Program-made: the position numbers and the translations under genes
From: a virus
DNA: 26,759 nt
Strand: one strand, 5' to 3'
IMG/VR virus record: IMGVR_UViG_3300040807_003521
Location: 1 to 26,759 of that record
Notes under the pieces: model-generated
Told to the model about the DNA's origin: nothing
Database searches by the model: none
Seen by the model: only the letters and a program-made list of their open reading frames with translations
Shown here: positions 3-25,910 of the stretch, piece after piece
Layout: each line of letters begins with the position of its first letter
How positions within the stretch are numbered: the first letter of the stretch is position 1

Positions 3-3000
3 ATTCGTACTGCAAATACTCTTATCATTGATGATATTCCTGACGATCAATATTCAAATCAGTTAGATGAATTCTATGATTATATTGATACCTTAGCAAG
101 TCCAAAAGGCCATATCTTTATTGAAAGCACAGCCGACAATGATGGTCCTGCTGGGCACCATTTTGTTGTTTACGAAATAAATGAATTTGATTGGGACAGC
201 GGTTCAAAGGCATACGGTATATTCTCAGTTACTTATGTTGCTTCGGGTGCCGTTGCAAGTTATGATTGGGATAACGTAGACAACGATCACGGTCCTGATA
301 CTCTTGTTTCGTTTATTCCTGCAGGCCCACGCGGTTTACAAGGTATTACAGGTCTACAAGGTGCTCAAGGTACACAAGGTGTCCAAGGCACACAAGGATT
401 TACTGGAGATACTGGTTTACAAGGGGCGCAAGGCGTACAAGGATTACAAGGTCTTCAGGGTCTACAAGGTTTGCAAGGACTTCAAGGTTACCAAGGTACA
501 ACTGGTATCCAAGGTTTCACAGGTTTCCAAGGTATTCAAGGTGAAGCGCAGCAAGGTACTCAAGGCTTCCAGGGTATTACAGGTATTCAAGGCGACGTTG
601 GTTTCCAAGGTACGCAAGGTGCTCAAGGTACACAAGGATTGCAAGGTCTACAAGGTCTACAGGGACTACAAGGTGAGACTGGTGCTGGTGTTCAAGGTAC
701 ACAAGGTGTCCAAGGACTTCAAGGTCTACAAGGTAATCTAGGTATACAAGGTTCTGACGGTGGATTTGGTGGTGCTACTTTTGACTATACTTTTGAATCT
801 GATACGAACGCATCAGACCCAGGTATCGGTAGATTAAAATTCAACAACGGTGCCTTAGGTTCAGCCACGGTAATGTATATTGATGATCGTGACGATGACT
901 TCAACGATCTACAATCATACTTAAGAACAATTGACGATTCTACTTCTACAATTAAAGGACACTTTAAAGTAACCGACGGTTCTAATGCAGCAAACTTTGT
1001 AATCTATACAATTGATGCTTTACAAGAACAATCTGGTTATTTTGAAATTGACTGTACATTCTTAAACGGTTCAGTAAGTTCTTATTCTGATAACCAAGAC
1101 GTACGCATTACCTTTGCAAGAACAGGTGATGCAGGTGATCCTGGACCGCAAGGTGTTCAAGGTTTCACGGGTATTCAAGGCGACCTCGGTTTCCAAGGTG
1201 CTGATGGTGCTGGTTCGCAAGGTGTTCAAGGTATCCAAGGTCTCGGTGGGGTTGATGGCACCGACGGAACACAAGGTGTTCAAGGTTTACAAGGCGAAGA
1301 GATTCAAGGTATCCAAGGCCCACAAGGTACGGCAGGAAACGACGGATCTGATGGAACACAAGGTTTCCAAGGACACCAAGGCGTTCAAGGTCCACAAGGT
1401 ACTCAAGGTTTACAAGGTATTCAAGGTGAAGGCGGATTGGGTGCAGGTGGTACTCAGGGTACTCAAGGTCTGCAAGGACTTCAAGGAACACAAGGTTTAC
1501 AAGGTGATCTAGGTCCAGCAGGATTTGGCGCACAAGGTATTCAAGGTCTTCAAGGTCCACAAGGAACCAACGGCCAAGATGGCGCTCAAGGTTTACAAGG
1601 TGGATCTGGTTCAGGATCACAGGGTGTTCAAGGTATTACAGGCGCCGAAGGTGAGGAAGGACCTGCAGGACCACAAGGTATTCAAGGTATTACAGGTGGT
1701 GCTGCGGCACAAGGTTCGCAAGGTGTCCAAGGTCTTCAAGGTTTCCAAGGTCCTGATGGTTCAGGATCGCAAGGTACGCAAGGTTTCCAAGGTCCAGGCG
1801 GAACAGGCGGGGCAGGTTTCCAAGGTACTCAAGGTGTACAAGGCGTTCAAGGTTTACAAGGTGAATTGGCTGCAGGTGGTAACCAAGGTGCTCAAGGTAC
1901 CCAAGGTCCGCAAGGTCTACAAGGTACGTCGGCAACTGGAGGATCAGGTTTACAAGGTATTCAAGGCGTTCAAGGTACGCAAGGCTTCCAAGGTGCTGAA
2001 GGTGGAACCGGTGGTGGTGTCCAAGGTATTCAAGGTATTCAAGGCGGCGGCGGTGTCCAAGGTGAAAATGGCGGCGGCGGTACTCAAGGTATTCAAGGTG
2101 CTCAAGGTCATCAGGGTGTTCAAGGTCCATTAGGTGTTGGATCTGGCGGTAACCAAGGTTTCCAAGGTGCCCAAGGTATGCAGGGTAATGACGGTTTCCA
2201 AGGTGGCGAAGGATCGGGTGTTCAAGGCGCACAAGGTACCCAGGGTATTCAAGGCGATGTTGGTCCTGATGGTTTCCAAGGTATTCAAGGTTTACAAGGT
2301 TTAACTGCTGAATCTTCAGAGGTTAATATTAATGACCTTTATGCCTCCAACCTTCAGTCAACAAATATGTCAGTACCGTTGGTACAAGGTGGTACAGGTA
2401 GCCGTCCAGTTTACGCAACTGCATCGCCAAACCCAGGTGGAGAAAGCAACTTCTTCTATCAGGCATCAACCGACCAATTAACAGTTGAAAATATCAACGT
2501 TGCTGGTAATATGACAGTTGGCGGAACAATTAACGGTGCAACAGGTAATTATCTTGAAGCCGATGCTTTCGCTCAGAAAACGGCAGGCAACTTAAGAATT
2601 GATGATAACTTAGAGCTCGAGTTTGGTACAGGTGGCGATGCCCATATCGTATTTGACTCAACCGATCTTGTTATGGATACCGTTCTTTCAATCGGTAATT
2701 GGTACATCAAGAATAACGCGGTTAACAAATTTACGTTTGATTTGAGCGGCGGAGACTTCACTGCAACTGGTGATATTGATGCACAATCCGATGAAAGAGT
2801 TAAAACGAATGTTGAAACAATTAGCGGTGCTCTTGATAAAGTTACGCAATTGCGCGGTGTATATTTTGAAAGAATTGCTATTCCTGGAACAAGGAAGGTC
2901 GGCGTGATTGCTCAGGAAGTTGAGGCAGTTGTTCCTGAATTAGTTAATACCGATGCCACTGGAATGAAATCAGTTTCTTACGGTAATATTACAGGATTAC

Positions 3001-3056
3001 TAATTGAAGCCGTTAAAGAACTCAAGGAAGAAGTTGATGATCTGAAAAGGTCGTAA
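3..3056 (+). CDS. Collagen-like tail fibre protein with C-terminal S74 chaperone (5' end outside window)
   Basis: The reading frame is open from the first full codon, so the gene starts upstream; 1017 residues are visible. Order seen: a globular domain (visible residues 1 to about 105), a Gly-X-Y block (nt 324-774), a second copy of the globular domain (about nt 775-1124; shared features are acidic 'IDD' and 'IPDDQY/RDDDFNDLQ' segments and a 'G(H/Y)F' strand), a longer Gly-X-Y block (nt 1125-2300), a beta-rich shaft and a terminal peptidase S74 domain. In S74 proteins the C-terminal domain trimerises the fibre and then cuts itself off at a Ser-Lys pair; here SDERVK has Ser at nt 2787-2789 and Lys at 2802-2804, the canonical five-residue spacing, followed by GVIAQEVE and a C-terminal coiled coil. 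The collagen triplets carry Gln, not Pro, at most Y positions. The product is probably a trimeric virion fibre. Which fibre it is (side, short or accessory) cannot be told. Confidence 0.85.
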   Translation: MRTANTLIIDDIPDDQYSNQLDEFYDYIDTLASPKGHIFIESTADNDGPAGHHFVVYEINEFDWDSGSKAYGIFSVTYVASGAVASYDWDNVDNDHGPDTLVSFIPAGPRGLQGITGLQGAQGTQGVQGTQGFTGDTGLQGAQGVQGLQGLQGLQGLQGLQGYQGTTGIQGFTGFQGIQGEAQQGTQGFQGITGIQGDVGFQGTQGAQGTQGLQGLQGLQGLQGETGAGVQGTQGVQGLQGLQGNLGIQGSDGGFGGATFDYTFESDTNASDPGIGRLKFNNGALGSATVMYIDDRDDDFNDLQSYLRTIDDSTSTIKGHFKVTDGSNAANFVIYTIDALQEQSGYFEIDCTFLNGSVSSYSDNQDVRITFARTGDAGDPGPQGVQGFTGIQGDLGFQGADGAGSQGVQGIQGLGGVDGTDGTQGVQGLQGEEIQGIQGPQGTAGNDGSDGTQGFQGHQGVQGPQGTQGLQGIQGEGGLGAGGTQGTQGLQGLQGTQGLQGDLGPAGFGAQGIQGLQGPQGTNGQDGAQGLQGGSGSGSQGVQGITGAEGEEGPAGPQGIQGITGGAAAQGSQGVQGLQGFQGPDGSGSQGTQGFQGPGGTGGAGFQGTQGVQGVQGLQGELAAGGNQGAQGTQGPQGLQGTSATGGSGLQGIQGVQGTQGFQGAEGGTGGGVQGIQGIQGGGGVQGENGGGGTQGIQGAQGHQGVQGPLGVGSGGNQGFQGAQGMQGNDGFQGGEGSGVQGAQGTQGIQGDVGPDGFQGIQGLQGLTAESSEVNINDLYASNLQSTNMSVPLVQGGTGSRPVYATASPNPGGESNFFYQASTDQLTVENINVAGNMTVGGTINGATGNYLEADAFAQKTAGNLRIDDNLELEFGTGGDAHIVFDSTDLVMDTVLSIGNWYIKNNAVNKFTFDLSGGDFTATGDIDAQSDERVKTNVETISGALDKVTQLRGVYFERIAIPGTRKVGVIAQEVEAVVPELVNTDATGMKSVSYGNITGLLIEAVKELKEEVDDLKRS
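324..774 (+). repeat. Collagen-like Gly-X-Gln block 1
   Basis: About 150 codons of Gly-X-Y triplets, mostly GLQ, GTQ, GIQ, GVQ and GFQ. At DNA level this is a 9-bp period built on CAAGGT/CAAGGC, so the same hexamer recurs many times within a few hundred bases. The lysine-rich reading frame on the same strand and the Leu-rich antisense frames across it are by-products of this period. Confidence 0.9.
1125..2300 (+). repeat. Collagen-like Gly-X-Gln block 2
   Basis: About 390 codons of Gly-X-Y triplets, mostly ending in Gln, separated by short Gly/Ala/Asp/Glu-rich breaks such as GGAGFQG and GEEIQG. The 9-bp period again gives dense CAAGGT/CAAGGC direct repeats. The breaks in the triplet pattern would make kinks or hinge points in a triple-helical rod. 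Confidence 0.9.
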
Positions 3057-3493: not shown

Positions 3494-6400
3494 ATGTCAA
3501 TTAAGGTAAAAGTAGGCGGTTCAAATAAGATCCGTTCGGTCCCAAAGCAAGATACAAATAGATCACTTGTTTTAAGTAGCGAGAAAAAGCCTCTTATCAC
3601 AAGCGATTCTGTTGCGTTAGGATTTAACACAACCGGCGATTATATTCAATCTGTCACTGTTGGCGACGGTCTTGTAATTAATCCAACTACTTCTGGCGAA
3701 CAACTTGATATTGCACTTCGCCATGCCAATACCTCAAACGAGTTACTAAGTACAAATAACGATGTATTTGGTTTTTTAACTAACATCAATATTGATAACT
3801 TTGGTCACGCGACAACGTTTGAAAATAAGATCTTTAATTCTGACAATTTTTCCCACGCAAATAATACGATTTCTTCTCAATACATTACGTTTGGGAATAC
3901 GTCAGTAACACTTGGCGATACAACTACAGAGATTATTGGTCTTACCGATTTTAATGTCGGGTTATTAACATTTAATGGAAGATCTATTGTTGCAGATGGC
4001 GATTTGCGTCTTGCTCCTTCGGGCAACGCAATCGATGTAAACAATTCTCGCATCGTAAATGTCACTGACCCTGTTGATGCACAAGATGCGGTTACTCGTC
4101 AATATCTTGATGAAACAGTTACAGATCTTACTTTAAGTTTAAAAGTTGTTGAAGATCCAACAGATCCTACAGACGCAACAAACAAGCGTTATGTTGATAA
4201 TGTAATTAAAGGTTTAAGAGTAAGACCTGCCGTGCAGGCAGCAACCACTGGTGACTTAGGTGGTACGTTTGCAGTAGGTAATACATCATTTGCGTCAACG
4301 ATTACTTTGCCTCCTGCCGCGGTTTTAAATATTGATGATGTAACTGACTGGACTATAGGAGACCAGATTCTTGTTAAAAATCAGACGAATCCATTACAAA
4401 ACGGATCGTATGAAATCACTCAAGCTGGTACGGTTGCAACTCCTTGGATTATTCAAAGAACATCGCATTCTGATGAGTCTGACGAAGTTCCTGCATCGTT
4501 CTATTATGTTACAGATGGTACAGCAAATCGTGCTACAGGTTGGGTTGCCACTGTTACCGATGCTGAAACGTTTGAGATAAATTCTGATGCAGTCAACTTC
4601 ATTCAATTCCAAGGTGAAGGTACTTATACTGCAGGCGAAGGCCTTTCCATTACAGGTTACAATTTCTCAGTTAACGTTGATGACTCAACGATTGAAATTG
4701 ATTCCGACACTTTACGTATCAAAGATTCTGGTATTACGAATGCCAAACTAACAAACGATTCTCTTACAATCGGCACTGTTGAATATACTCTTGGGACTAC
4801 AACAGATAACCTTCAAGGCATTAGAGAGATTAGTGGTTATACAAACGATAGTTTGATTATAACAACAGATGTGATAGATGTCAATAGTAATGGTGCAATT
4901 ATTTTACCAAATGGTGTAAGTTCTGATAGACCTACCGCCGTTCAAGGTATGATTCGTTTTAACAACCAAGACGGACAATTTGAAGGGTATGATGGTTTAG
5001 CTTGGACCGGTTTAGGTGGCGTAATTGACGTTGACCAAGATACCTACATTAAAGCAGAGGCCACCGCAGGATCAGACAACGACGAGCTGCAGTTCTTTAC
5101 ACAAGATGAAAAACGCGCTCAGATTGATTCCGACGGTACGTTCAGAGTATATGATAGATTTATCATTCCTGTCGGTCAAACGTCAGATAGAATTACTCCT
5201 TCTATTCAAGGTTCAATTCGTTACAATACAACCGACAATCAGTTTGAAGGTTATAACGGAACGGTATGGGCGGGTCTAGGCGGCGTTATTGATGCTGACC
5301 AAGATACTCGTATTATTGCAGAGAATACTCCAGGATCCGATAACGATCAGTTGAAATTCTTTGCGGCTGGTGACTCAATTATAGTCATTGACCAAAATTC
5401 GTTTACCTCAAACGTTGACATTAAGATTGATACAACTGGCGCTCTAACAATTCCAAACGGTACAACAGGAGATCGTCCTACACCTGACCAAGGAATGATT
5501 CGTTTCAATACTTCGGACAATCAATTCGAAGGTTATGATGGTACAACATGGTCTGGCTTAGGTGGTGTTATTGATGCCGACCAGGATACTTATATTAAAG
5601 CCGAAACATCGTCAGGATCAGACAACGATCAATTAGATTTCTTTGTTGCTAACACTCATGTAATGCGTTTGGATTCAGATGGCGATTTAAGATTTGGCGC
5701 AGGCTTAGACCAATTCGTTGTTGATTATGCAACAGGCACGGTAACGATCCGTGGCAATATTACAATCGGCGATGATGACGGCGACAGTATTAATGTTGTT
5801 GCCGATTTTGGCACAAACCTAATTCCAAATACACATATTACATATGACCTTGGTACTTCATCTAAAAACTGGAGAACCGCATATGTACAAAGTATTGGAA
5901 GTCAGAATGATATTGTAACGTTTGACGGCGAAGGCGCAATCGTTGTTCCTGACGGAACTACTGCGCAACGTCCAGCATCTGTTGCTGGTATGATCCGTTT
6001 CAATACGGATGACGCAAGGTTTGAAGCATATGATGGCGTTGCTTGGGGTGGTTTGGCTGGTTCAGTAATTGACGTTGACCGTGATACGTTTATTATTGCG
6101 GAAACAACGGCAGGTGCGGACAACGACGAGCTTCATTTCCATACAGCAAATACTCAAGCATTCATTGTTAACGCAAACCAGCAGATAACTACAACAGGCA
6201 CTGCTAATCTACAGTTTGGATCAGCTACTGGTATTATTGATAGTGGTAATACTATTATAACAAATGTTAGATCACCTGTCAATGGAAAAGATGTAGTTAC
6301 CAAGAATTATTTAGAAAATGAGTTTGAATCTAATCTTCAAATTAAAGACAATATCACAAATACTTATCGTGATCTGAATGTTCTTGCAAGTCCAAAGATT

Positions 6401-9400
6401 AATCTTGGTACTGGTCTTGAAGAAAACAGTTATAGTGCTGCTAATAATGAAATCAATCTACAGCTTTCAGACCTAACTGCAACAATGACACCAGGTGTGT
6501 ACGGTAACGATGGATTTACTCCTCGTATTCGTATTGACTCTACGGGTCGTATTGATTTTGCAACAGAAATTCCAGTTGAGCTTCAAGCTAACGCGATTCC
6601 TGACTTTACAGAAACATCTCGTGATATTATTTCACTTATGTTCGTTGAAGGTAATCACGTCGGCGGTAAATTTGTAAACGATGATGCTAACAACATTATT
6701 AACTTTATTAATACCGCAAACACAATTGCAACTGTCACTGCAAACACTGGCATTGAAGTTATTCATCAGCCAGGTTACTTAACTAATCTTGATATTAAAC
6801 ACGGTAATACCTCAAATGTATCTGACACAAATAATATTACAACAACAATTCTAAGTAATATTACATTTGACGAGTTTGGCCACGTGTCAACTGTTGAGTC
6901 TAGAGACTTATCGCCGTTCTTTATTCCTTATGTTGGTGATAGTACAATTGCTGGTGAACTTACGTTTAATAAATTTATTGATGCAAACGATACTGACTTC
7001 TTTGTTGACCCGCATCAACAGACTGAAATTAAAGATCTCTTAATTGGTAAAAACCAAACGTCATCTCAAATTCAAATGCGTGATGGCTCAGGCACCTCAT
7101 CATTAATTTATGCGGGTAGCCTTGGTATCGGCTTCTTGGATTCAGGGTTTAACTTTGCCGCGTACACAAATAAAAATACTGGCGATTGGACTGTTCAGCG
7201 CAATGTAATTGGTAAGAAGTTTATTGATGGCAACGATCAGACATATTTCTTAAATCCCGCAGGCACTGATTCTTTACTTGCAAAAGTTACACTTGATGAT
7301 AGTTTGGTTGTTGATGACCTTACTTTTGATGGCAATGAAATTTCTACCGATGTTGCAGGATTAAGTTTAAATCCATCAAATTTACAGATTGCCGTTAACT
7401 CTTCAAGAATCATTGATGTTGCAGATCCTACTTCAGCACAAGATGCCGCAACAAAGGCATACGTTGATGCTGTCGCACAAGGATTAAGAGTTATTCCTGC
7501 CGCGTTGGCAGCAACAACCGCAGACTTAGGAGCAACATATAATAACGGCGCAGGAACTCTTACCGCTCCATCAAACGGCGCATTCGCATTGGACGGCGTA
7601 TCTACTTGGGTTGTAGGAGATCGTGTTCTTGTTAAGGATCAAACAAATCCTGAAGAAAACGGTTCTTATGAAGTTACAACAGTTGGTGATGGTTCAACCG
7701 CTTGGGTACTTACTCGCGGAGAGTACTTTGACGAATCAACAGAAATTCCAGGTTCTTTCCAATTTGTAACTGATGGGACAACAAATAACGGCACAGGTTG
7801 GGTTGCTCAGGTTGCAGATGCTGAAACATTTACAATAGGTACTGATGCCGTAACATGGTATCAATTCTCAGGCGCAGGTACATATACCGCAGGCGCAGGA
7901 TTAACATTAGACGGAACTCAATTCTCAATTGCGAATAGCTCAATCTTGAACTCAATGATTGAGAATTCACAATTTACAATCGCAGGAGAATCAGGAAATA
8001 ACGTTGCCATTGCTTTGGGTGAAACATTAACCTTCGAGGCAGGTAACGGAATTGATACTGAAATCGCAACAGGAAAAGTTGTAATTTCGGCAAACACCGC
8101 GGATATCTTTACATCAATCAAAACAGTTGACGGTATAGGTTCTGGTCTTGATGCAGATTTGCTTGACGGACAGCAAGGCGCATATTATTTAGATTTCCCG
8201 AATTTCACAAACCTTCCTGATCCTAAGCTTACAGTTATTGGTGACGTTGAAGGTAACACAACGTTTACTGATTTAGGTAATGCAACAATAAATCTTGAGC
8301 TTACCGATACAGGTGTTACCGCGGGTACTTATGGTAACGCAAGTCAGATTCCAATTATTACAGTTGACGTTGACGGCCGAGTAACAGCACTATCTAACAC
8401 CGCGGTTGCAGGTGTTGAAGATTTCACATACGATTCTTCAAACAACCAACTTGCAATTGAAACTGGTGACGGTTCAGTATTTAATGTTTATATTAACGAA
8501 TTTAAAGATTTAACTGTTGAAGATCTTACGGCTAATTCTGTTAACATTACTTCGTTCTCAACGTCAGCACTTACAGTTAATGGCGATCTTACAGCTAATA
8601 ACGCATTCTTTGCTGGTAACATTACAGTTGATGGTACGGTTGATGGCAGAGATATTGCCGCGGATGGCATTGTTCTAGATGGACTTGCTTCAGCAACCAC
8701 AACAGTTCAACTAAACGGTGATGTAACAGGATCTGCAACATCAAACGCAAATGGTGTTGTTAGTATCATTGCAGACGTCGCTAACAGCGGTGTTGTAGCA
8801 GGTACATATGGCACAGCATCACAAATCCCAATCGTCACTGTGGGACTGGACGGCCGTATTACAGCAATGGCAAGTACAGCTGTTGCTGGTGTTGATGATT
8901 TCTTCTATACTCAAGCTAACAATACATTAACCATTCAAACTGGTGATGGTTCTGTATTCAATTCAAAGATAAATGCGTTTGACGAAAATGTCGACTTTGG
9001 CGCAGGCATTGATGTAACAGGAAACATTACGGTAACAGGAACTGTAGACGGTCGTGATATTGCCGCAGATGGTGCAAGACTTGATGCTCTTGAAGACGAT
9101 CTTACAATTCAATTAAACGGTGACGTTACAGGAACGGTTACTTCAAATACTGGAATCCTTGCTCTTACAACTGATATTGCCAACAGTGGTGTTACTGCAG
9201 GCACATACGGTTCATCCTCACTTGTACCTGTCATTACAGTTGCAGCAGACGGTCGTATTACAGTTGCTGCCGAAACCGCGGTTGCAGGAGTTGAATCATT
9301 AGATTGGTATTCAGCAAATAACACACTGCAAATTGGAACAAGTGACGGTTCGGTATTCAATCAGAACATCTCTCAATTTGACCAAGACATTACAGTTAAT

Positions 9401-10597
9401 GCTAACATTGCTGTTACAGGGACAGTTGATGGAAGAGACCTTTCGGTTGATGGCGCAAAGCTTGATGGTATTGAAGCAGGAGCAACCGCCGACCAAACCG
9501 CAACTGAAATTCTTAACTTATTACTTACTGTTGATGGCGATGGGTCAGGATTGGATGCCGACTCTGTTGACGGATATTCTGCAGGCGAGATCCTTGACCA
9601 AGCGGCAAATACGGCAGCTCAATTAATCGGTGACGGTGAAGTATTCATATATGCTAACACAGGCGTAGTAATTGATGGACCACCTGCTAATAGATTTAAT
9701 CTTAATAGTGCAAATACATTTAACTTTTATGTAGGACACGCGGATACTTCATCCGTAGCGGATTCAACAAATTCAAATGGCGTGGTGATTCAAGGATTAA
9801 CATTTGACACCTTTGGTCACGTACAAACAGTAAGTACATTAGATTTAGATAATCGTTATTATACTGAAACTGAAACTGATACTTTACTTGATCTTAAAGT
9901 TGATAAGACAACGACGGTAACAGGATCTAACGGTTTAACAGGCGGTGGTGCTCTTTCAGCAAACGTTGTAATTGAGCACGCTGATACATCAACGCAAGGT
10001 AACGTTAGCTTAACAGACGGAAACGTTGTCACAGGAATTAACGTTGATACCTTTGGTCATACAACTGATATTACATCAACAGATTTAGACGGTCGCTATT
10101 ATACTGAAACAGAATTAGATAACGGTGCTCTTGATGGTCGTTATTATACTGAAAGCGAACTTGACGGCGGTGCGCTTGATGGAAGATATTACACTGAAAC
10201 AGAAGCAGATGCCAAATTTGTTGATGTAACCGGCGATACAATGACTGGTAATTTGGTAGTGAATGCGTTCATTGACCAAGAACAGTCAAGAATGGTTTCA
10301 AAAGAAACAACTGCATCAAATCTATTCCCACTTACTCTCCTTCAATTCGCCAAAGCAGATTATGGAAGTGCAGAAGTTGTTATTACTGCAAAGGATGGCG
10401 TTAATAGACATATCACAAAGCTTCTTATAACTCACGACGGTACGACTGCAATTGCAACTGAATACGGTGTGGTTTATACGAGTACTGAGCTTGCTGAATA
10501 TGAGGTTTCGGTATCAGGAAATAATGTCAATGTGATAGGAACTTCTGGATCAGGATCGTCAAATTATAAGATTGTTGCTACTCTGCTTAAAGCATAA
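3494..10597 (+). CDS. Giant repeat-built tail fibre protein (2367 aa)
   Basis: The ATG follows a GGAGG at 3478-3482 that lies inside the end of the upstream gene. The protein is assembled from several repeat families typical of phage fibres: two copies of a domain around 'ILVKNQTNP..NGSYE' (about nt 4150-4680 and 7415-7940); four copies around 'GMIRFNT.D.QFEGYDG..W' (4898-6165); three copies around 'GDVTG..AGTYG' and 'DGSVFN' (8230-9470); four 'H.NTS...FGH' units; and a tandem DGRYYTE array near the end. The tail-fibre signature GSGLDADLLDG appears twice. The last hundred residues resemble a small C-terminal domain seen on marine phage structural proteins ('LLITHDGTTAIATEYG'). There is no S74 chaperone and no catalytic motif. 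It is probably a structural fibre of the virion; its position (proximal fibre, whisker or side fibre) cannot be decided. Neither T4 gp12 nor fibritin is recognisable in it. Confidence 0.8.
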   Translation: MSIKVKVGGSNKIRSVPKQDTNRSLVLSSEKKPLITSDSVALGFNTTGDYIQSVTVGDGLVINPTTSGEQLDIALRHANTSNELLSTNNDVFGFLTNINIDNFGHATTFENKIFNSDNFSHANNTISSQYITFGNTSVTLGDTTTEIIGLTDFNVGLLTFNGRSIVADGDLRLAPSGNAIDVNNSRIVNVTDPVDAQDAVTRQYLDETVTDLTLSLKVVEDPTDPTDATNKRYVDNVIKGLRVRPAVQAATTGDLGGTFAVGNTSFASTITLPPAAVLNIDDVTDWTIGDQILVKNQTNPLQNGSYEITQAGTVATPWIIQRTSHSDESDEVPASFYYVTDGTANRATGWVATVTDAETFEINSDAVNFIQFQGEGTYTAGEGLSITGYNFSVNVDDSTIEIDSDTLRIKDSGITNAKLTNDSLTIGTVEYTLGTTTDNLQGIREISGYTNDSLIITTDVIDVNSNGAIILPNGVSSDRPTAVQGMIRFNNQDGQFEGYDGLAWTGLGGVIDVDQDTYIKAEATAGSDNDELQFFTQDEKRAQIDSDGTFRVYDRFIIPVGQTSDRITPSIQGSIRYNTTDNQFEGYNGTVWAGLGGVIDADQDTRIIAENTPGSDNDQLKFFAAGDSIIVIDQNSFTSNVDIKIDTTGALTIPNGTTGDRPTPDQGMIRFNTSDNQFEGYDGTTWSGLGGVIDADQDTYIKAETSSGSDNDQLDFFVANTHVMRLDSDGDLRFGAGLDQFVVDYATGTVTIRGNITIGDDDGDSINVVADFGTNLIPNTHITYDLGTSSKNWRTAYVQSIGSQNDIVTFDGEGAIVVPDGTTAQRPASVAGMIRFNTDDARFEAYDGVAWGGLAGSVIDVDRDTFIIAETTAGADNDELHFHTANTQAFIVNANQQITTTGTANLQFGSATGIIDSGNTIITNVRSPVNGKDVVTKNYLENEFESNLQIKDNITNTYRDLNVLASPKINLGTGLEENSYSAANNEINLQLSDLTATMTPGVYGNDGFTPRIRIDSTGRIDFATEIPVELQANAIPDFTETSRDIISLMFVEGNHVGGKFVNDDANNIINFINTANTIATVTANTGIEVIHQPGYLTNLDIKHGNTSNVSDTNNITTTILSNITFDEFGHVSTVESRDLSPFFIPYVGDSTIAGELTFNKFIDANDTDFFVDPHQQTEIKDLLIGKNQTSSQIQMRDGSGTSSLIYAGSLGIGFLDSGFNFAAYTNKNTGDWTVQRNVIGKKFIDGNDQTYFLNPAGTDSLLAKVTLDDSLVVDDLTFDGNEISTDVAGLSLNPSNLQIAVNSSRIIDVADPTSAQDAATKAYVDAVAQGLRVIPAALAATTADLGATYNNGAGTLTAPSNGAFALDGVSTWVVGDRVLVKDQTNPEENGSYEVTTVGDGSTAWVLTRGEYFDESTEIPGSFQFVTDGTTNNGTGWVAQVADAETFTIGTDAVTWYQFSGAGTYTAGAGLTLDGTQFSIANSSILNSMIENSQFTIAGESGNNVAIALGETLTFEAGNGIDTEIATGKVVISANTADIFTSIKTVDGIGSGLDADLLDGQQGAYYLDFPNFTNLPDPKLTVIGDVEGNTTFTDLGNATINLELTDTGVTAGTYGNASQIPIITVDVDGRVTALSNTAVAGVEDFTYDSSNNQLAIETGDGSVFNVYINEFKDLTVEDLTANSVNITSFSTSALTVNGDLTANNAFFAGNITVDGTVDGRDIAADGIVLDGLASATTTVQLNGDVTGSATSNANGVVSIIADVANSGVVAGTYGTASQIPIVTVGLDGRITAMASTAVAGVDDFFYTQANNTLTIQTGDGSVFNSKINAFDENVDFGAGIDVTGNITVTGTVDGRDIAADGARLDALEDDLTIQLNGDVTGTVTSNTGILALTTDIANSGVTAGTYGSSSLVPVITVAADGRITVAAETAVAGVESLDWYSANNTLQIGTSDGSVFNQNISQFDQDITVNANIAVTGTVDGRDLSVDGAKLDGIEAGATADQTATEILNLLLTVDGDGSGLDADSVDGYSAGEILDQAANTAAQLIGDGEVFIYANTGVVIDGPPANRFNLNSANTFNFYVGHADTSSVADSTNSNGVVIQGLTFDTFGHVQTVSTLDLDNRYYTETETDTLLDLKVDKTTTVTGSNGLTGGGALSANVVIEHADTSTQGNVSLTDGNVVTGINVDTFGHTTDITSTDLDGRYYTETELDNGALDGRYYTESELDGGALDGRYYTETEADAKFVDVTGDTMTGNLVVNAFIDQEQSRMVSKETTASNLFPLTLLQFAKADYGSAEVVITAKDGVNRHITKLLITHDGTTAIATEYGVVYTSTELAEYEVSVSGNNVNVIGTSGSGSSNYKIVATLLKA
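4898..6165 (+). repeat. Four diverged protein repeats within the 2367-aa fibre
   Basis: Each unit begins with an (I/V/L)P.G...(D/Q)RP/I segment, continues with GMIRFNT.D.QFEGYDG..W.GL and DxDQDTYI.AE, and ends with GSDNDQL.FF. Copies begin near nt 4898, 5165, 5450 and 5944. The DNA has diverged well beyond simple duplication, so this is an old modular expansion. Confidence 0.8.
8230..9470 (+). repeat. Three diverged protein repeats within the 2367-aa fibre
   Basis: Three units share, in order, 'GDV.G', 'SGV.AGTYG.(A/S)S', 'VTV..DGR(I/V)T', 'AVAGV', 'TGDGSVFN' and, in the last two, 'VTGTVDGRD'. They begin near nt 8237, 8716 and 9117. Confidence 0.8.
10088..10222 (+). repeat. Tandem 45-bp DGRYYTE array
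   Basis: Three consecutive units with DGRYYTE start at 10088, 10133 and 10178, spaced exactly 45 bases (15 codons). A fourth, separate copy (DNRYYTETE) lies at 9848. The units differ at synonymous positions. Confidence 0.85.
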
Positions 10598-21211: not shown

Positions 21212-21238
21212 TTGACATTTTTTATAAATTGATATAAT
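21212..21238 (+). promoter_or_regulatory. Sigma70-like promoter overlapping the late promoter
   Basis: A perfect TTGACA (21212-21217) and a perfect TATAAT (21233-21238) are separated by 15 bases, shorter than the preferred 17. The last base of the TATAAT is the first base of the late box at 21238-21245. The sequence match is strong but the spacing is poor. Confidence 0.4.
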
Positions 21239-21245
21239 ATAAATA
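21238..21245 (+). promoter_or_regulatory. T4-type late promoter
   Basis: Exact TATAAATA in the 75-base gap between the 136-aa gene and the 137-aa gene, 36 bases before ATG 21282. It would drive the two paralogous small genes up to the hairpin at 22023-22053. Confidence 0.8.
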
Positions 21246-21281: not shown

Positions 21282-21695
21282 ATGGCTTGGACTTACGAAT
21301 GGGAAATTGAACGTTTAAAAGTAAAAGACGAAGTTAATAACGACGGTGTCACATTACAAAACGCGGTTTGCCAAACTTATTGGAAAGTAACAGGAACAAA
21401 CGATGCAGGAAATTCTGCATCTTTTAGCGGAGCAACACCTTTATCTGCAGCTGCAGTTGGCGAAGATGATTTTACAGACTTTGCTTCTTTAACTGAAGAT
21501 CAGGTAATCGGTTGGATTCGTGGAATCGTTGAAGGACCAAACGGTTATATGGATCACATCAACGAAGTATTAGCTAAAGATATTGGGCAACAAGAAGAAA
21601 GCGAAATTGAAAACCAATCGCTTCCTTGGGCGCCTGAACCTGAGGCAAATACTACGCCGACTCCGACTCCTGAAGCAGCAACCGGTAGCGAATAA
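21282..21695 (+). CDS. Small late phage protein, paralogue A (DUF7936-like, 137 aa)
   Basis: The start has CGGAGA 8 bases upstream. The protein starts with a short amphipathic strand (TYEWEIERL), followed by 'YWKVTGTNDAGNSASFSGATPL', an acidic loop and a helix 'LTEDQVIGWIRGIVEG'. The following gene repeats the same plan (WKV/WKK-GTN-GNSA/GDSA-TxL-L/VxxxxxxxW), so the two arose by duplication. Small proteins with this pattern recur in cyanophages and other marine T4-like phages as conserved proteins of unknown function; I think they fall under DUF7936, but that accession is from memory. This copy has an extra tail rich in Pro, Thr and Glu (about residues 110-137, with APEPEANTTPTPTPEAATG), probably disordered. 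It is likely a virion or assembly component, since it follows a late promoter. Confidence 0.75.
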   Translation: MAWTYEWEIERLKVKDEVNNDGVTLQNAVCQTYWKVTGTNDAGNSASFSGATPLSAAAVGEDDFTDFASLTEDQVIGWIRGIVEGPNGYMDHINEVLAKDIGQQEESEIENQSLPWAPEPEANTTPTPTPEAATGSE

Positions 21696-21707: not shown

Positions 21708-22043
21708 ATGTCTATGACTTATACTTGGAAGATCGTTGAAGTTGGCACAAAGAATGCTGTCAATAATGAAAACGAAGTTTTAGAAGATGCGATCGTCGAG
21801 GTGACATGGAAAAAAATTGGTACCAATATAAGTGGCGACTCTGCTGTTTATGTTGGTACTACTGCTTTAGATCCTGCATCAACTTCAGCCGCTTCATTTA
21901 TTACTTATGAAGATGTTACATCAAGTAATATTGTTGATTGGTTGGAAGCAACGATTACCGATGGCGAAATGGAACGAATTAACAATACGATCGCAAACAA
22001 GATTGCAAAGTTAGGAATTACTAAGAGAGCTTTTAACAACTAA
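21708..22043 (+). CDS. Small late phage protein, paralogue B (DUF7936-like, 111 aa)
   Basis: This starts 12 bases after paralogue A and shares its layout: 'TYTWKIVEV' at the N-terminus, 'VTWKKIGTNISGDSAVYVGTTAL' in the middle and a helix 'NIVDWLEATITDGEMERI' near the end. It lacks the Pro/Thr tail of its neighbour and ends in a short basic segment (KLGITKRAFNN). ATG 21708 is chosen because AAAGGT lies about 8 bases upstream; the ATG two codons later is an alternative. The last coding bases form the 5' arm of a terminator hairpin. The function is unknown, and it could pair with A as a hetero-oligomer. Confidence 0.75.
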   Translation: MSMTYTWKIVEVGTKNAVNNENEVLEDAIVEVTWKKIGTNISGDSAVYVGTTALDPASTSAASFITYEDVTSSNIVDWLEATITDGEMERINNTIANKIAKLGITKRAFNN

Positions 22044-22053
22044 AAGCTTTCTT
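22023..22053 (+). terminator. Probable terminator spanning the end of paralogue B
   Basis: A 13-bp stem (one G-T wobble) pairs 22023-22035 with 22041-22053 around the loop ACAAC, and the stop codon lies at the start of the 3' arm. A T-rich run follows (TATTATGCTTTTATTAT). The stem is AT-rich, so termination may be partial. Confidence 0.55.
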
Positions 22054-22079: not shown

Positions 22080-23117
22080 ATGCACGATCTGCATATGGGT
22101 GGTTTGACAACGTATGCTCTCAAACGAGGCGGTTCTGTTCACCCTATCATATTGCCAAAAGAAGTTACCGGTAACGAACAAGGATTAATGAATCCTTCTG
22201 TGTTTGTACACAACGGAAAGATTCTTGTTAATATTCGGCATATCAATTATATCCTATATCACTCCGAACAAAAAAGGTTCCCACATGAATGGGGACCGTT
22301 GGTATATGTGCATCCGCAAAATGATGTTGCCTTAAAAACCACTAACATTATTGCCGAACTTGATGAGAATATGAATCTTGTTAACGCAGGCCGTGTTAAT
22401 ACTTCAGAATTAGATTCAAAACCGACATGGAACTTTGTTGGCCTTGAAGATGCCCGTCTATTTAGTTGGGATGATAAGCTTTGGCTTTGCGGCGTTCGTC
22501 GAGACTGTTACGACGATAAAGGTAAAGGCCGAATGGAAATGGCTGAAATTGAATTTATAGATGGAGAATGGAAAGAGATATCACGTAACCCAATTCCTGC
22601 TCCCAATGGAGACGGCAGTTATTGCGAAAAGAATTGGATGCCTGTAAATGATATGCCATTTCATTTTGTTAAATGGTGTAATCCTGTTCAGGTTGTTAAG
22701 TATGATATTAACGATGGCACTTGTGAAGATGCCGTATGCGATAAAGAAAAGACTTATGACTTTACTCCTGATATGCGTGGAGGATCTCAAGTCTTGCGCA
22801 TTAACGAGAATCAGCGAATGGCATTTATCCATGAAACAAGTCTATTCCGAGATCCATTCAATCGTAAAGATGGCAGTTATCAGCACCGCGTTGTAATTTG
22901 GGATAACGATTGGAATATTGTCCACAGATCACAGCCTTTCTATTTTATGGGAAACGCATATGATAATGTAAAAGGCGTCGACTATGCGGTTGAGTTTGCC
23001 GTAGGTGCTGCATTTTATGGCAATGATATTCTAATTTCTTTTGGTGTAGTTGATAACTGTTCGTTTATTTTGCGAATGCCGCAAGATGTGTTTATGTCTT
23101 TCTTAAAGGGTGAATAA
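22080..23117 (+). CDS. GH130-like beta-propeller carbohydrate-active protein
   Basis: This 345-residue protein has GGAGG 4 bases before its ATG. Sequence marks fit a five-bladed propeller of the GH130/GH43-type superfamily: GLEDARLF at residues 121-128, EKNWMP at 183-188, GGSQV followed by HE at 251-252, and a late 'EFAVGAAFYGNDILISFGVVDN' blade. Known GH130 members are phosphorylases or hydrolases acting on beta-mannosides. Relatives like this are common in sugar-polymer gene clusters, often next to TPR or FkbM proteins, and their reaction is mostly unproven. No signal peptide is seen, so it would act in the infected cell. It heads a coupled three-gene set, with a 1-base overlap to the next gene. 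It could be a glycosidase, a phosphorylase or a glycosyltransferase-like binding protein. Confidence 0.65.
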   Translation: MHDLHMGGLTTYALKRGGSVHPIILPKEVTGNEQGLMNPSVFVHNGKILVNIRHINYILYHSEQKRFPHEWGPLVYVHPQNDVALKTTNIIAELDENMNLVNAGRVNTSELDSKPTWNFVGLEDARLFSWDDKLWLCGVRRDCYDDKGKGRMEMAEIEFIDGEWKEISRNPIPAPNGDGSYCEKNWMPVNDMPFHFVKWCNPVQVVKYDINDGTCEDAVCDKEKTYDFTPDMRGGSQVLRINENQRMAFIHETSLFRDPFNRKDGSYQHRVVIWDNDWNIVHRSQPFYFMGNAYDNVKGVDYAVEFAVGAAFYGNDILISFGVVDNCSFILRMPQDVFMSFLKGE

Positions 23118-24346
23118 TGATTCAAGCATTACTTAATGAGGTTATATTAGACCACCAAAATCCATTTAAGCTTTACAATCTTGCAAAGGAATATGACCGT
23201 CTTGAGCAAGGTGCCGCAGCTGCAACCTTTTATATGCGTGCTGCTGAAAATAGTAATGAAGACAATTTTGAAGAACACTTCGTTCAATATAAAGCTTTAA
23301 TACTAATGGCGTTAATATATCATAGAGAAGGCAATCGTGACATAACTGTTAAAAGTATTCTACGTCACGCTGTTACCGCATTTCCTGAAAGACCCGAGGC
23401 ATACTTCATTTTATCTAAATGGTTGGCAGATCGCCACAATTGGCAAGAAGCATATATGTTGGCACGACAAGGTTTGGATTGCCCAATCTTTGAAAAGGTT
23501 GATGACGATTTAGAATATGAAGGGGAATGGCAGTTAAAATTCATATATGCTATTTCTAAATGGAAAGTTGAAGGATCAGATAGAGCTAAGAATTACCTAT
23601 TTGACTTTAAATACAAGACAAAGCATTCTCAAGAATACGAAGAGTTAATTAATAATTGGTTAAAACAATCTGGATATCCGTCAACACTACAGTTTACATC
23701 TGAAGATATTGAATCATATAAGTTTCCTTTTAATGGTATTGAACACGTTAAAAAGAACTATTCGCGCCATTATCAAGATATGTTTGTTTTATCAGCTCTT
23801 AATGGTAAAAGAAATGGCACGTTTATTGAAATAGGATCTGGGGATCCATACACATTTAATAATACAGCTTTACTTGAAGATTCCTTTGATTGGACAGGAA
23901 TAAGCATTGATAATAATGAAAGATTCTGTTATCAGCATTCTCGTAAACGTAAAACTCAAATCTTAAATGCTGATGCTGCACAACTTGATTATGATTTGTT
24001 TTTCAAAATGAATTGTGTTGAAAAGCATACTGATTTCTTACGTGTTAATGCTGAAGGAGCAACGGCTGCGGCATTACAAAAGATGCCTTGGAGTAAGCAC
24101 GAATTCTTTGTTATACAGGTGCAACACAACGCGTGTTGGTGGGGAGATGAATTGAAAAACTTTTCTCGAGATCTGTTAAGAAAAATCGGTTATGTATTAG
24201 TGGTACCTGACGTCGCGGTTAACGAAAAAGATAATTATGAAGATTGGTGGTTGCATCCGCAAATTGCTCAGAATAAAAAGAATATGATTGGAAAAGACAG
24301 TGTTAACTTTGCATACACATATATGATGAAGGAGAGTAACAGATGA
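23117..24346 (+). CDS. TPR-like protein with FkbM-type SAM methyltransferase domain
   Basis: This 409-residue protein starts in TAATG, sharing 1 base with the upstream stop, with AAAGGG 6 bases before the ATG. Residues 1 to about 180 are helical with TPR-like spacing ('NPFKLYNLAKEYDRL', 'AAATFYMRAAENS', 'PEAYFILSKWLADRHNWQEAYMLA'). Residues about 210-400 are a Rossmann methyltransferase of the FkbM type: GTFIEIGSGDP (nucleotide loop, residues 234-244), 'WTGISIDNN' (acidic residue that would hold SAM ribose) and LRVNAEG (residues 308-314). FkbM enzymes O-methylate sugars and similar small groups. Most family members have Asp in the last motif (DxEG), where Asn311 stands here, while Glu313 and Gly314 are kept. 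The TPR region may bind a partner or substrate. It is probably glycan tailoring in the infected cell or on the virion; the substrate is unknown. Confidence 0.7.
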   Translation: MIQALLNEVILDHQNPFKLYNLAKEYDRLEQGAAAATFYMRAAENSNEDNFEEHFVQYKALILMALIYHREGNRDITVKSILRHAVTAFPERPEAYFILSKWLADRHNWQEAYMLARQGLDCPIFEKVDDDLEYEGEWQLKFIYAISKWKVEGSDRAKNYLFDFKYKTKHSQEYEELINNWLKQSGYPSTLQFTSEDIESYKFPFNGIEHVKKNYSRHYQDMFVLSALNGKRNGTFIEIGSGDPYTFNNTALLEDSFDWTGISIDNNERFCYQHSRKRKTQILNADAAQLDYDLFFKMNCVEKHTDFLRVNAEGATAAALQKMPWSKHEFFVIQVQHNACWWGDELKNFSRDLLRKIGYVLVVPDVAVNEKDNYEDWWLHPQIAQNKKNMIGKDSVNFAYTYMMKESNR

Positions 24347-25104
24347 AAGCAGTTATTGTAACGGGTGGATTTGACCCACTTCATTCAGGACATATTGAAT
24401 ATTTTAAAGCAGCAAAAGAATTAGGTACGATCTTATTTGTTGGTCTCAATTCCGATGAATGGCTAACACGTAAAAAAGGTCGCCCCTTTATGCCTATGTC
24501 AGAACGCAAGGCAATTGTTGAAAATATTAAATGCGTCGGACACGCGTTTGAATTTGATGATTCGGATGGATCTGCTCGTGGCGCAATTGATTATGTGAAA
24601 AATTATATTGGCGAAAACAAACCAATTGTGTTTGCGAATGGCGGTGACCGTAATGAAGCTAACATTCCTGAAATGGATCACGGTGGTGATAACGTTACGT
24701 TTGAATTTGGCGTAGGTGGCACTGATAAGAAAAACAGTTCTTCGTGGTTACTCGAAAATTGGGACAAACCTGAAACGCAACGTCTTTGGGGTAAATACCG
24801 AAACCTTGATTCTAATGGGCATTGGAAAGTAAAAGAACTTTCTATTGATATAGGTAAATCGTTGAGTGACCAAAGGCATTTTATACGTTCGGAACATTGG
24901 CATATCGTAGATGGTGAATTGAAAATGGAACTCGAATTTGCCAATGAATACTCTACATCAAAAGTTTATAAAACCGGCGACAGCATTGACATTCCAGTAA
25001 AAACATGGCATAAAGCAACTAATGTTGGAAACGTGCCTGTCAAAGTAATTGAAGTATGGATGGGCGACGAGTTATCCGAAGAGGATATTGAGCGAAGAGA
25101 TTAA
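24343..25104 (+). CDS. Cytidylyltransferase-like domain fused to a mannose-6-phosphate isomerase-type cupin
   Basis: This 253-residue protein starts inside the previous stop (ATGA overlap) with AAGGAGAG 6 bases upstream. Residues 1 to about 150 are a nucleotidyltransferase of the glycerol-3-phosphate cytidylyltransferase / RfaE-C type: GGFDPLHSGH (residues 8-17, the HxGH nucleotide-binding motif) and 'GLNSDEWL..KKGRPFMPMSER', with 'KNSSSWLL' where such enzymes carry the ISTT-like motif. Residues about 155-253 are a cupin like the C-terminal half of ManC/AlgA: RSEHWHIVDGE (from residue 182), IPVKTWH and 'VIEVWMGDELSEEDI'. The family members activate or isomerise sugar phosphates, so a role in making a nucleotide-activated sugar or polyol is likely; donor and substrate cannot be told. 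In known enzymes these domains are normally on separate polypeptides or, for the cupin, joined to a different (GT2-like) transferase. Confidence 0.75.
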   Translation: MKAVIVTGGFDPLHSGHIEYFKAAKELGTILFVGLNSDEWLTRKKGRPFMPMSERKAIVENIKCVGHAFEFDDSDGSARGAIDYVKNYIGENKPIVFANGGDRNEANIPEMDHGGDNVTFEFGVGGTDKKNSSSWLLENWDKPETQRLWGKYRNLDSNGHWKVKELSIDIGKSLSDQRHFIRSEHWHIVDGELKMELEFANEYSTSKVYKTGDSIDIPVKTWHKATNVGNVPVKVIEVWMGDELSEEDIERRD

Positions 25105-25109
25105 GTTTT

Positions 25110-25164
25110 TCAGTCCTATCGTGTTTTATAAATACAATAAAGAATTAAATCACAATAGGATTGA
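25110..25164 (+). promoter_or_regulatory. Hairpin that would cover the gene 13 ribosome-binding site
   Basis: Arms 25110-25123 and 25151-25164 pair over 14 positions with one C-A mismatch (25120/25154) and one G-U wobble (25113/25161); the rest are Watson-Crick pairs. The 3' arm contains the AGGA at 25157-25160 and ends 2 bases before the ATG. The 27-base loop holds the late promoter. Read-through RNA can form the hairpin; RNA started at the late promoter (about 25140) lacks the 5' arm. Confidence 0.6.
25127..25134 (+). promoter_or_regulatory. T4-type late promoter for the neck genes
   Basis: Exact TATAAATA in the gap before gene 13, with ATG 25167 32 bases downstream. Transcription would start around 25140, inside the loop of the hairpin. 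Confidence 0.85.
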
Positions 25165-25166
25165 CC

Positions 25167-25910
25167 ATGGCCCAACCTACAACAAGAACCGAATTTAAAG
25201 ATTATATCCTTAGGAAACTAGGTCAGCCGGTGATTCAGGTTAACGTATCTGATGAGCAAGTTGAAGACCGCGTTGATGAAGCGATTTCTTTTTGGCGCGA
25301 TTATCATTATAACGGCAGCCAGCTTGTCTATCTTAAGCACGAAATCACACAAGACGATAAAGACAACGGATATATCACATTACCGACAGGATTGCTCGGT
25401 ATTCAAGGTATTTTCAGATTTAACTCAAACGTTGCAACAGGACAGGGTATGTTTAACACGACATATCAATTTGTTCTGAATAATCTTGACGACCTTATGA
25501 ACTACAATGTTCAAAACTATTATATGACTATGCAGCATATTGAGTTTATGCAAGAAATCCTTGTAGGTCGAGTTCCTATCCGTTATAATAAACACGTAAA
25601 CAGATTATACATTGATGCCGACAAAGATAATATGGTTGTTGGTAATTATATTGTAGTAGAAGCTTATGACGTAATTGATGCCTCAACGTATACTGATGTA
25701 TGGGGAGACCGTTGGTTACAAAATTATGCAACTGTTCTTGTGAAAGAAAATTGGGGCGCCAACTTAACCAAATTTAACAACATGCAATTGGTTGGTGGAG
25801 TAACATTTAACGGAGAGCAAATATTGCAAGAGGCAAGAGAAGAGAGACAAAGAATGGAAGAAGAAGCCATTAACTCTTTACAGCCTCTTACTTATAACTT
25901 TATTGGATAA
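25167..25910 (+). CDS. 13: Neck protein gp13
   Basis: This is a homologue of T4 gp13, which with gp14 makes the neck that closes the filled head and lets the tail dock. Seen: 'FKDYILRKLGQPVIQVNVSD' then 'QVEDRVDEAISFWRDYHYNGS', the diagnostic N-terminal stretch of the family, and a C-terminal coiled-coil-like helix ('QEAREERQRMEEEAINS'). The 247 residues are shorter than T4 gp13 (309), as is usual in marine relatives. ATG 25167 is chosen over the in-frame TTG at 25161 because AGGA lies 6 bases upstream of it and the protein then begins MAQPTTRTEF. It is followed after 3 bases by gene 14. Control is likely by the late promoter at 25127 and the hairpin at 25110-25164. Confidence 0.9.
   Translation: MAQPTTRTEFKDYILRKLGQPVIQVNVSDEQVEDRVDEAISFWRDYHYNGSQLVYLKHEITQDDKDNGYITLPTGLLGIQGIFRFNSNVATGQGMFNTTYQFVLNNLDDLMNYNVQNYYMTMQHIEFMQEILVGRVPIRYNKHVNRLYIDADKDNMVVGNYIVVEAYDVIDASTYTDVWGDRWLQNYATVLVKENWGANLTKFNNMQLVGGVTFNGEQILQEAREERQRMEEEAINSLQPLTYNFIG

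Follow-up and report, generated by a model that had tools for sequence, protein, structure and literature searches.

A predicted leader hairpin enclosing the late promoter of the gene 13 homologue in uncultured T4-like phages, and its proposed role as a translational switch

The gene for the neck protein (gene 13) in the window, i.e. the whole 26,759-nt stretch of viral DNA analysed, is preceded by a hairpin that probably serves as a translational switch of the type known for T4 gene e, with gene 13 blocked on RNA reading through from the upstream cassette and freed on RNA begun at its own late promoter. RNA entering gene 13 from the cassette would carry both arms of the hairpin and fold, and the Shine-Dalgarno (SD) sequence would be hidden. 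Late RNA polymerase would begin at about 25140, in the loop, giving late RNA that lacks the 5' arm and from which gene 13 would be translated. This start was placed from the geometry of T4, whose 8-bp late box has its first base at -13, roughly one helical turn upstream of the start (PMC2988020). The features concerned are listed in Table 1.

Table 1. Hairpin, promoters and genes at the gene 13 boundary of the window.
Feature	Position	Strand	Remarks
Hairpin 5' arm, TCAGTCCTATCGTG	25110-25123	+	Upstream of the late promoter; pairing conserved in relatives
Hairpin 3' arm, CACAATAGGATTGA	25151-25164	+	Spans the SD; ends 2 nt short of ATG 25167
SD, AGGA	25157-25160	+	Partner is UCCU at 25114-25117
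T4-type late promoter, TATAAATA	25127-25134	+	In the hairpin loop, between the arms; exact consensus
Predicted late transcription start	25140	+	From T4 geometry
Overlapping sigma70-type and late promoters before the cassette	21212-21245	+	TTGACA, 15 nt, TGnTATAAT; TATAAATA at 21238-21245
Two DUF7936 genes, upstream cassette	21282-21695, 21708-22043	+	
Two long cassette ORFs	22080-23117, 23117-24346	+	tblastn: phage beta-mannosyltransferase/MGP protein; weak glycosyltransferase PHROG match
Cytidylyltransferase-cupin gene, last of the upstream cassette	24343-25104	+	Pfam CTP_transf_like, MannoseP_isomer, Cupin_2
Gene 13 homologue, neck protein, head-tail adaptor Ad2	25167-25910	+	PHROG 211, E 4e-43; tblastn to annotated neck proteins

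Over its 14 positions the stem has 12 Watson-Crick pairs, one G.U pair and one C x A mismatch (C25120/A25154). The original prediction had described arms of this length with one mismatch and one wobble, a 3' arm that covers AGGA and stops just before the ATG, and a late promoter in the loop, and all of these, with their coordinates, proved correct when checked against the sequence. It had also proposed that AGGA is paired in read-through RNA and released in late RNA, which was borne out by folding of the corresponding segments. The 25100-25175 segment folds at -16.4 kcal/mol (z -3.96), with none of 200 shuffled sequences equally stable, and the RNA from 25140 (25140-25175) has an MFE of -0.4 and is essentially open. 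The predicted probability that AGGA is unpaired is 0.000-0.001 in read-through RNA, with anything from 25 to 600 nt of upstream and from 30 to 200 nt of downstream context included, and 0.29-0.72 in late RNA, where AGGA would be partly to mostly free. Opening of the SD-AUG region is predicted to cost 10-14 kcal/mol in read-through RNA versus 3.4-5 kcal/mol in late RNA. Several features of an e-type leader are predicted here: a stable helix holds the SD in read-through RNA, and the SD is accessible in late RNA. The late promoter lies between the arms, and RNA begun there hence lacks the 5' arm.

A terminator or processing stem that trims the cassette RNA is extremely unlikely. The stem does sit between two genes, but its 3' arm is the ribosome-binding site, and it does not have the form of an intrinsic terminator, a G+C-rich stem followed by a T-run; no T-run follows it, and a terminator scan called none between the cytidylyltransferase gene and gene 13. 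Elsewhere in the cassette, a terminator-like 13-bp stem (AAGAGAGCTTTTA/TAAAAGCTTTCTT) is found at 22023-22053, between the second DUF7936 gene and the cassette gene after it.

The 5' arm starts about 5-6 nt past the stop codon (25104) of the cytidylyltransferase gene. A ribosome at this stop codon would sit over the outer arm and might melt it, which speaks against the e-type switch. Such opening would be expected if gene 13 were translationally coupled, i.e. if ribosomes ending the cytidylyltransferase gene opened the hairpin and gene 13 were translated in step from the read-through RNA. The spacing of 5 nt between stop codon and arm in the window, and similar spacings in several relatives, are in line with such coupling. 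However, coupling has no need of a promoter in the loop, and in L009/L195 and L261 the intergenic gap is about 120 nt and the arm is far from the stop codon. Coupling is thus unlikely as the general purpose of the hairpin, although possible in the window.

The stem alone is unremarkable. With at most one mismatch, G.U pairs allowed and a loop of 15-44 nt, the window contains 34 stems of 14 nt as compared with about 30 per shuffled sequence; the stem count was therefore dropped as evidence. What is unusual is the position of the stem over the SD. In one test none of 500 shuffled leaders blocked the gene 13 SD equally well, and with 40-nt leaders about 1% did so. Four late promoters in the window have a gene start nearby (3119, 10600, 21238 and 25127), among which only that at 25127 gave a difference between read-through and late RNA at every leader length tried. 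The fifth TATAAATA match in the window, at 20599, lies inside an ORF. The real evidence is the conservation of the arms, with compensation, in relatives.

Viral contigs were scanned with gene 13, gene 14, the cytidylyltransferase gene and the 345-aa cassette protein, which yielded 91 distinct gene 13 leaders: 17 with a cytidylyltransferase-cupin gene directly upstream, 17 with a loosely defined late box and another upstream gene, and 57 without a box. A TATAAATA or AATAAATA box was present 24-38 nt before the gene 13 ATG in all 17 leaders of the first class; NATAAATA is on record as a late box of cyanophages (PMC2984593). The TATAAATA box is absent within 150 nt before gene 13 in the isolates DLP_6, phiN3, Cr30, Melnitz-3 and HTVC008M. 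In most of the 17 leaders behind a cytidylyltransferase gene, DNA preceding the late promoter pairs with the region of the SD or the AUG, and the arm sequences differ. When each natural leader was compared with shuffled leaders, blocking was enriched in this class (12 lineages, Fisher P 2e-5) and not in the 17 late-promoter leaders with another upstream gene (P 0.74), and a rank test separated the two sets (P 0.0007); these P values are indicative only, because the lineages are related.

The arrangement is conserved in related phages, as in an e-type leader, with the exception of L015/L351, whose leader has no blocking effect (P 0.83). L092/L232 pair the AUG side instead, weakly (P 0.21), and L214 and L195 are weak when taken alone (P 0.27 and 0.18, respectively). 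The unblocked leader and these weak ones argue against the e-type switch. In L261, whose gene 13 shares only 66% identity, AGGAG is covered by another helix, GTGCA/TGCAC.

The arms of seven lineages, aligned by hand from the predicted folds, are in one helix register. In all of them the 5' arm falls at -53 to -57 and the 3' arm at -12 to -16, and the box lies between the two at -39 to -42. Standard pairs occupy 94% of the core cells in these lineages, as compared with 77% when arms are mispaired, and 94% is reached by 0.08% of all pairings. Four core columns outside the invariant SD core are changed on both sides: T-A to A-T in one, A-T to G-C and C-G in another, T-A to A-T in a third, and A-T, T-A and G-C in the fourth. 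An additional pair is present where the SD is GGG, and in L228/L278 the SD side TAGAGG faces CCTCTA in the opposite arm. Between lineages the arms vary in register and length; in an alignment-free test, swapping leaders among the 12 lineages weakened the block (P 0.0005). The original prediction had depended on arms that are conserved and compensating in relatives, and such arms, with differing sequences and compensatory changes, were found.

These data also bear on whether the stem arose by chance, or is a dyad retained at the promoter as a DNA element or protein-binding site. The commonness of equal-length stems in the window, given above, would fit this, and a comparison of plus- and minus-strand folds did not single out the plus-strand RNA as the selected one, which counts against the e-type switch as well. 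On the other side, the arm sequences vary between lineages while pairing is kept, as would not be the case for a sequence-specific site, and the control leaders lack the pairing. This explanation is very improbable.

For the e-type switch, read-through RNA has to come from the cassette. The cassette is preceded by a sigma70-type element, TTGACA-15-TGATATAAT (21212-21238), that is a perfect 12/12 match with an extended -10; by hand calculation, about 0.02 such matches are expected by chance in the window. Early or middle read-through RNA may originate from this element and the late promoter that overlaps it. For RB49 and S-PM2, such overlaps of early and late promoters are thought to result in middle expression (PMC2984593). 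Cassette RNA before late time thus appears plausible. The layout, the predicted occlusion and the covariation are seen in the sequences, whereas we infer the existence of RNA reading through into gene 13, its early or middle timing and an actual block of its translation. That no terminator-like site was called just before gene 13 also agrees with read-through. The block would prevent neck protein from being synthesised too early, as originally suggested, and the 12/12 sigma70-type promoter that overlaps a late one before the cassette adds support to this. Tandem sigma70-type/late elements also precede the first DUF gene in L245, L246 and L250, and a sigma70-type promoter lies just upstream of the 345-aa cassette gene in L239 and L249.

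Several further promoter-like elements were noted. L193, L195, L214, L228, L230, L234 and L237 have TTGACA-16/17-TAxAAT within the DNA for a C-terminal coil, IDxLxEMVYN, which is the end of the gene preceding the first DUF7936 gene, and an early promoter may be embedded in this fibre gene. The TTGACA...TATAAT of L193, L195, L214 and L228 was held back as independent proof of an early promoter, since it lies in the coding end of the fibre gene and could be partly a codon by-product. Before the first DUF7936 gene of L197, L198 and L202, inspection by eye showed a late promoter and, downstream of it, a short inverted repeat followed by a GATAAATA box; the late promoter and this box are perhaps tandem late promoters. 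In the window, 3-3056 is a long fibre ORF of collagen-like, GXQ-rich sequence that is open at the edge of the window. The minus strand carries two sigma70 promoters that match 12/12 (TTGACA-17-TATAAT, the -10 preceded by TG), at 4856-4884 and 6254-6282, antisense inside the long fibre ORF 3494-10597, with about 0.02 expected by chance by hand calculation.

The cassette also has a late promoter of its own (21238) besides the sigma70-type one, and the read-through RNA may thus be late as well as early, which weakens the case for the e-type switch. It suits a purely insulating hairpin, with no element of time, that uncouples the first late gene after the cassette from all cassette read-through, early or late, so that the gene's own late promoter alone would determine how much neck protein is made. 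In some relatives a fibre gene follows the cassette, and the late promoter there often has a weaker leader-SD pairing (8 of 21 site clusters at P<=0.1), as insulation of the boundary would predict. However, the pairing at the fibre genes involves a T-run, perhaps an element of the promoter itself, and the presence of a sigma70-type promoter overlapping the late one before the cassette points to early RNA being made. Insulation alone is a possible explanation that we hold to be somewhat improbable.

The focus on gene 13 may itself be too narrow, and the device may belong to the cassette boundary. In 68 distinct regions a fibre gene separates the cytidylyltransferase gene from gene 13 (e.g. L197, L199 and L225), and 42 of them carry a near-perfect minus-strand sigma70 promoter that adjoins the late promoter back to back, with TGTCAA immediately ahead of TATAAATA, and is directed antisense into the cassette. 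Such a back-to-back promoter was also observed in L009/L195 and L261; of the 22 regions of the window's type, only two have it. It is conceivable, if doubtful, that an RNA block belongs to the junction of the movable glycan/cytidylyltransferase cassette with whichever late gene comes next, rebuilt with new sequences each time and alternating between lineages with a back-to-back antisense sigma70-type promoter as the other silencer of read-through.

The e-type switch at gene 13 would mean that a type of regulation described for a few genes of T4 also acts on a head-tail connector gene, here in uncultured T4-like phages represented by metagenome contigs only. It suggests how phages keep late genes off behind an inserted cassette that is read earlier, and the natural series of compensating leaders makes the mechanism directly testable.

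In T4 gene e, an inhibitory helix has its 5' strand upstream of one or more late promoters, which in turn precede the SD; read-through RNA is blocked and late RNA free (PMC3014915). The comparison with T4 lysozyme drawn in the original prediction is right (PMC3014915, PMC2988022), and the T4 e leader has a matching signature when computed likewise: by the same measure it gave 15.7 kcal/mol for read-through and 1.0 kcal/mol for late RNA (P 0.007 with the inner late promoter), close to the values for the window. The system described here differs from T4 e in that it controls the neck protein rather than a lysis gene, has other arm sequences, a single late promoter and different upstream genes, and is predicted from sequence.

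The same mechanism has been described for T4 e, soc, 49 and I-TevI, and similar arrangements for segB and Aeh1 mobE (PMC3014915, PMC2988022). Gene 13 is not named among the leader-hairpin examples consulted in these two reviews, and no paper on a neck protein with a late promoter and hairpin was found in a search of open-access papers. The mechanism itself is already known, and the gene 13 leader would be a further case of it; the weaker pairing at fibre genes is the less expected finding. The overlap of sigma70-type and TATAAATA elements before the cassette resembles that of early and late promoters in RB49, S-PM2 and Syn9 (PMC2984593), although the elements here are predicted ones. With T4 soc, 49, I-TevI, segB and Aeh1 mobE, the proposed switch shares a late gene in early or middle RNA whose SD is sequestered except in late RNA (PMC2988022, PMC3014915), whereas those genes mostly encode homing endonucleases or other late functions.
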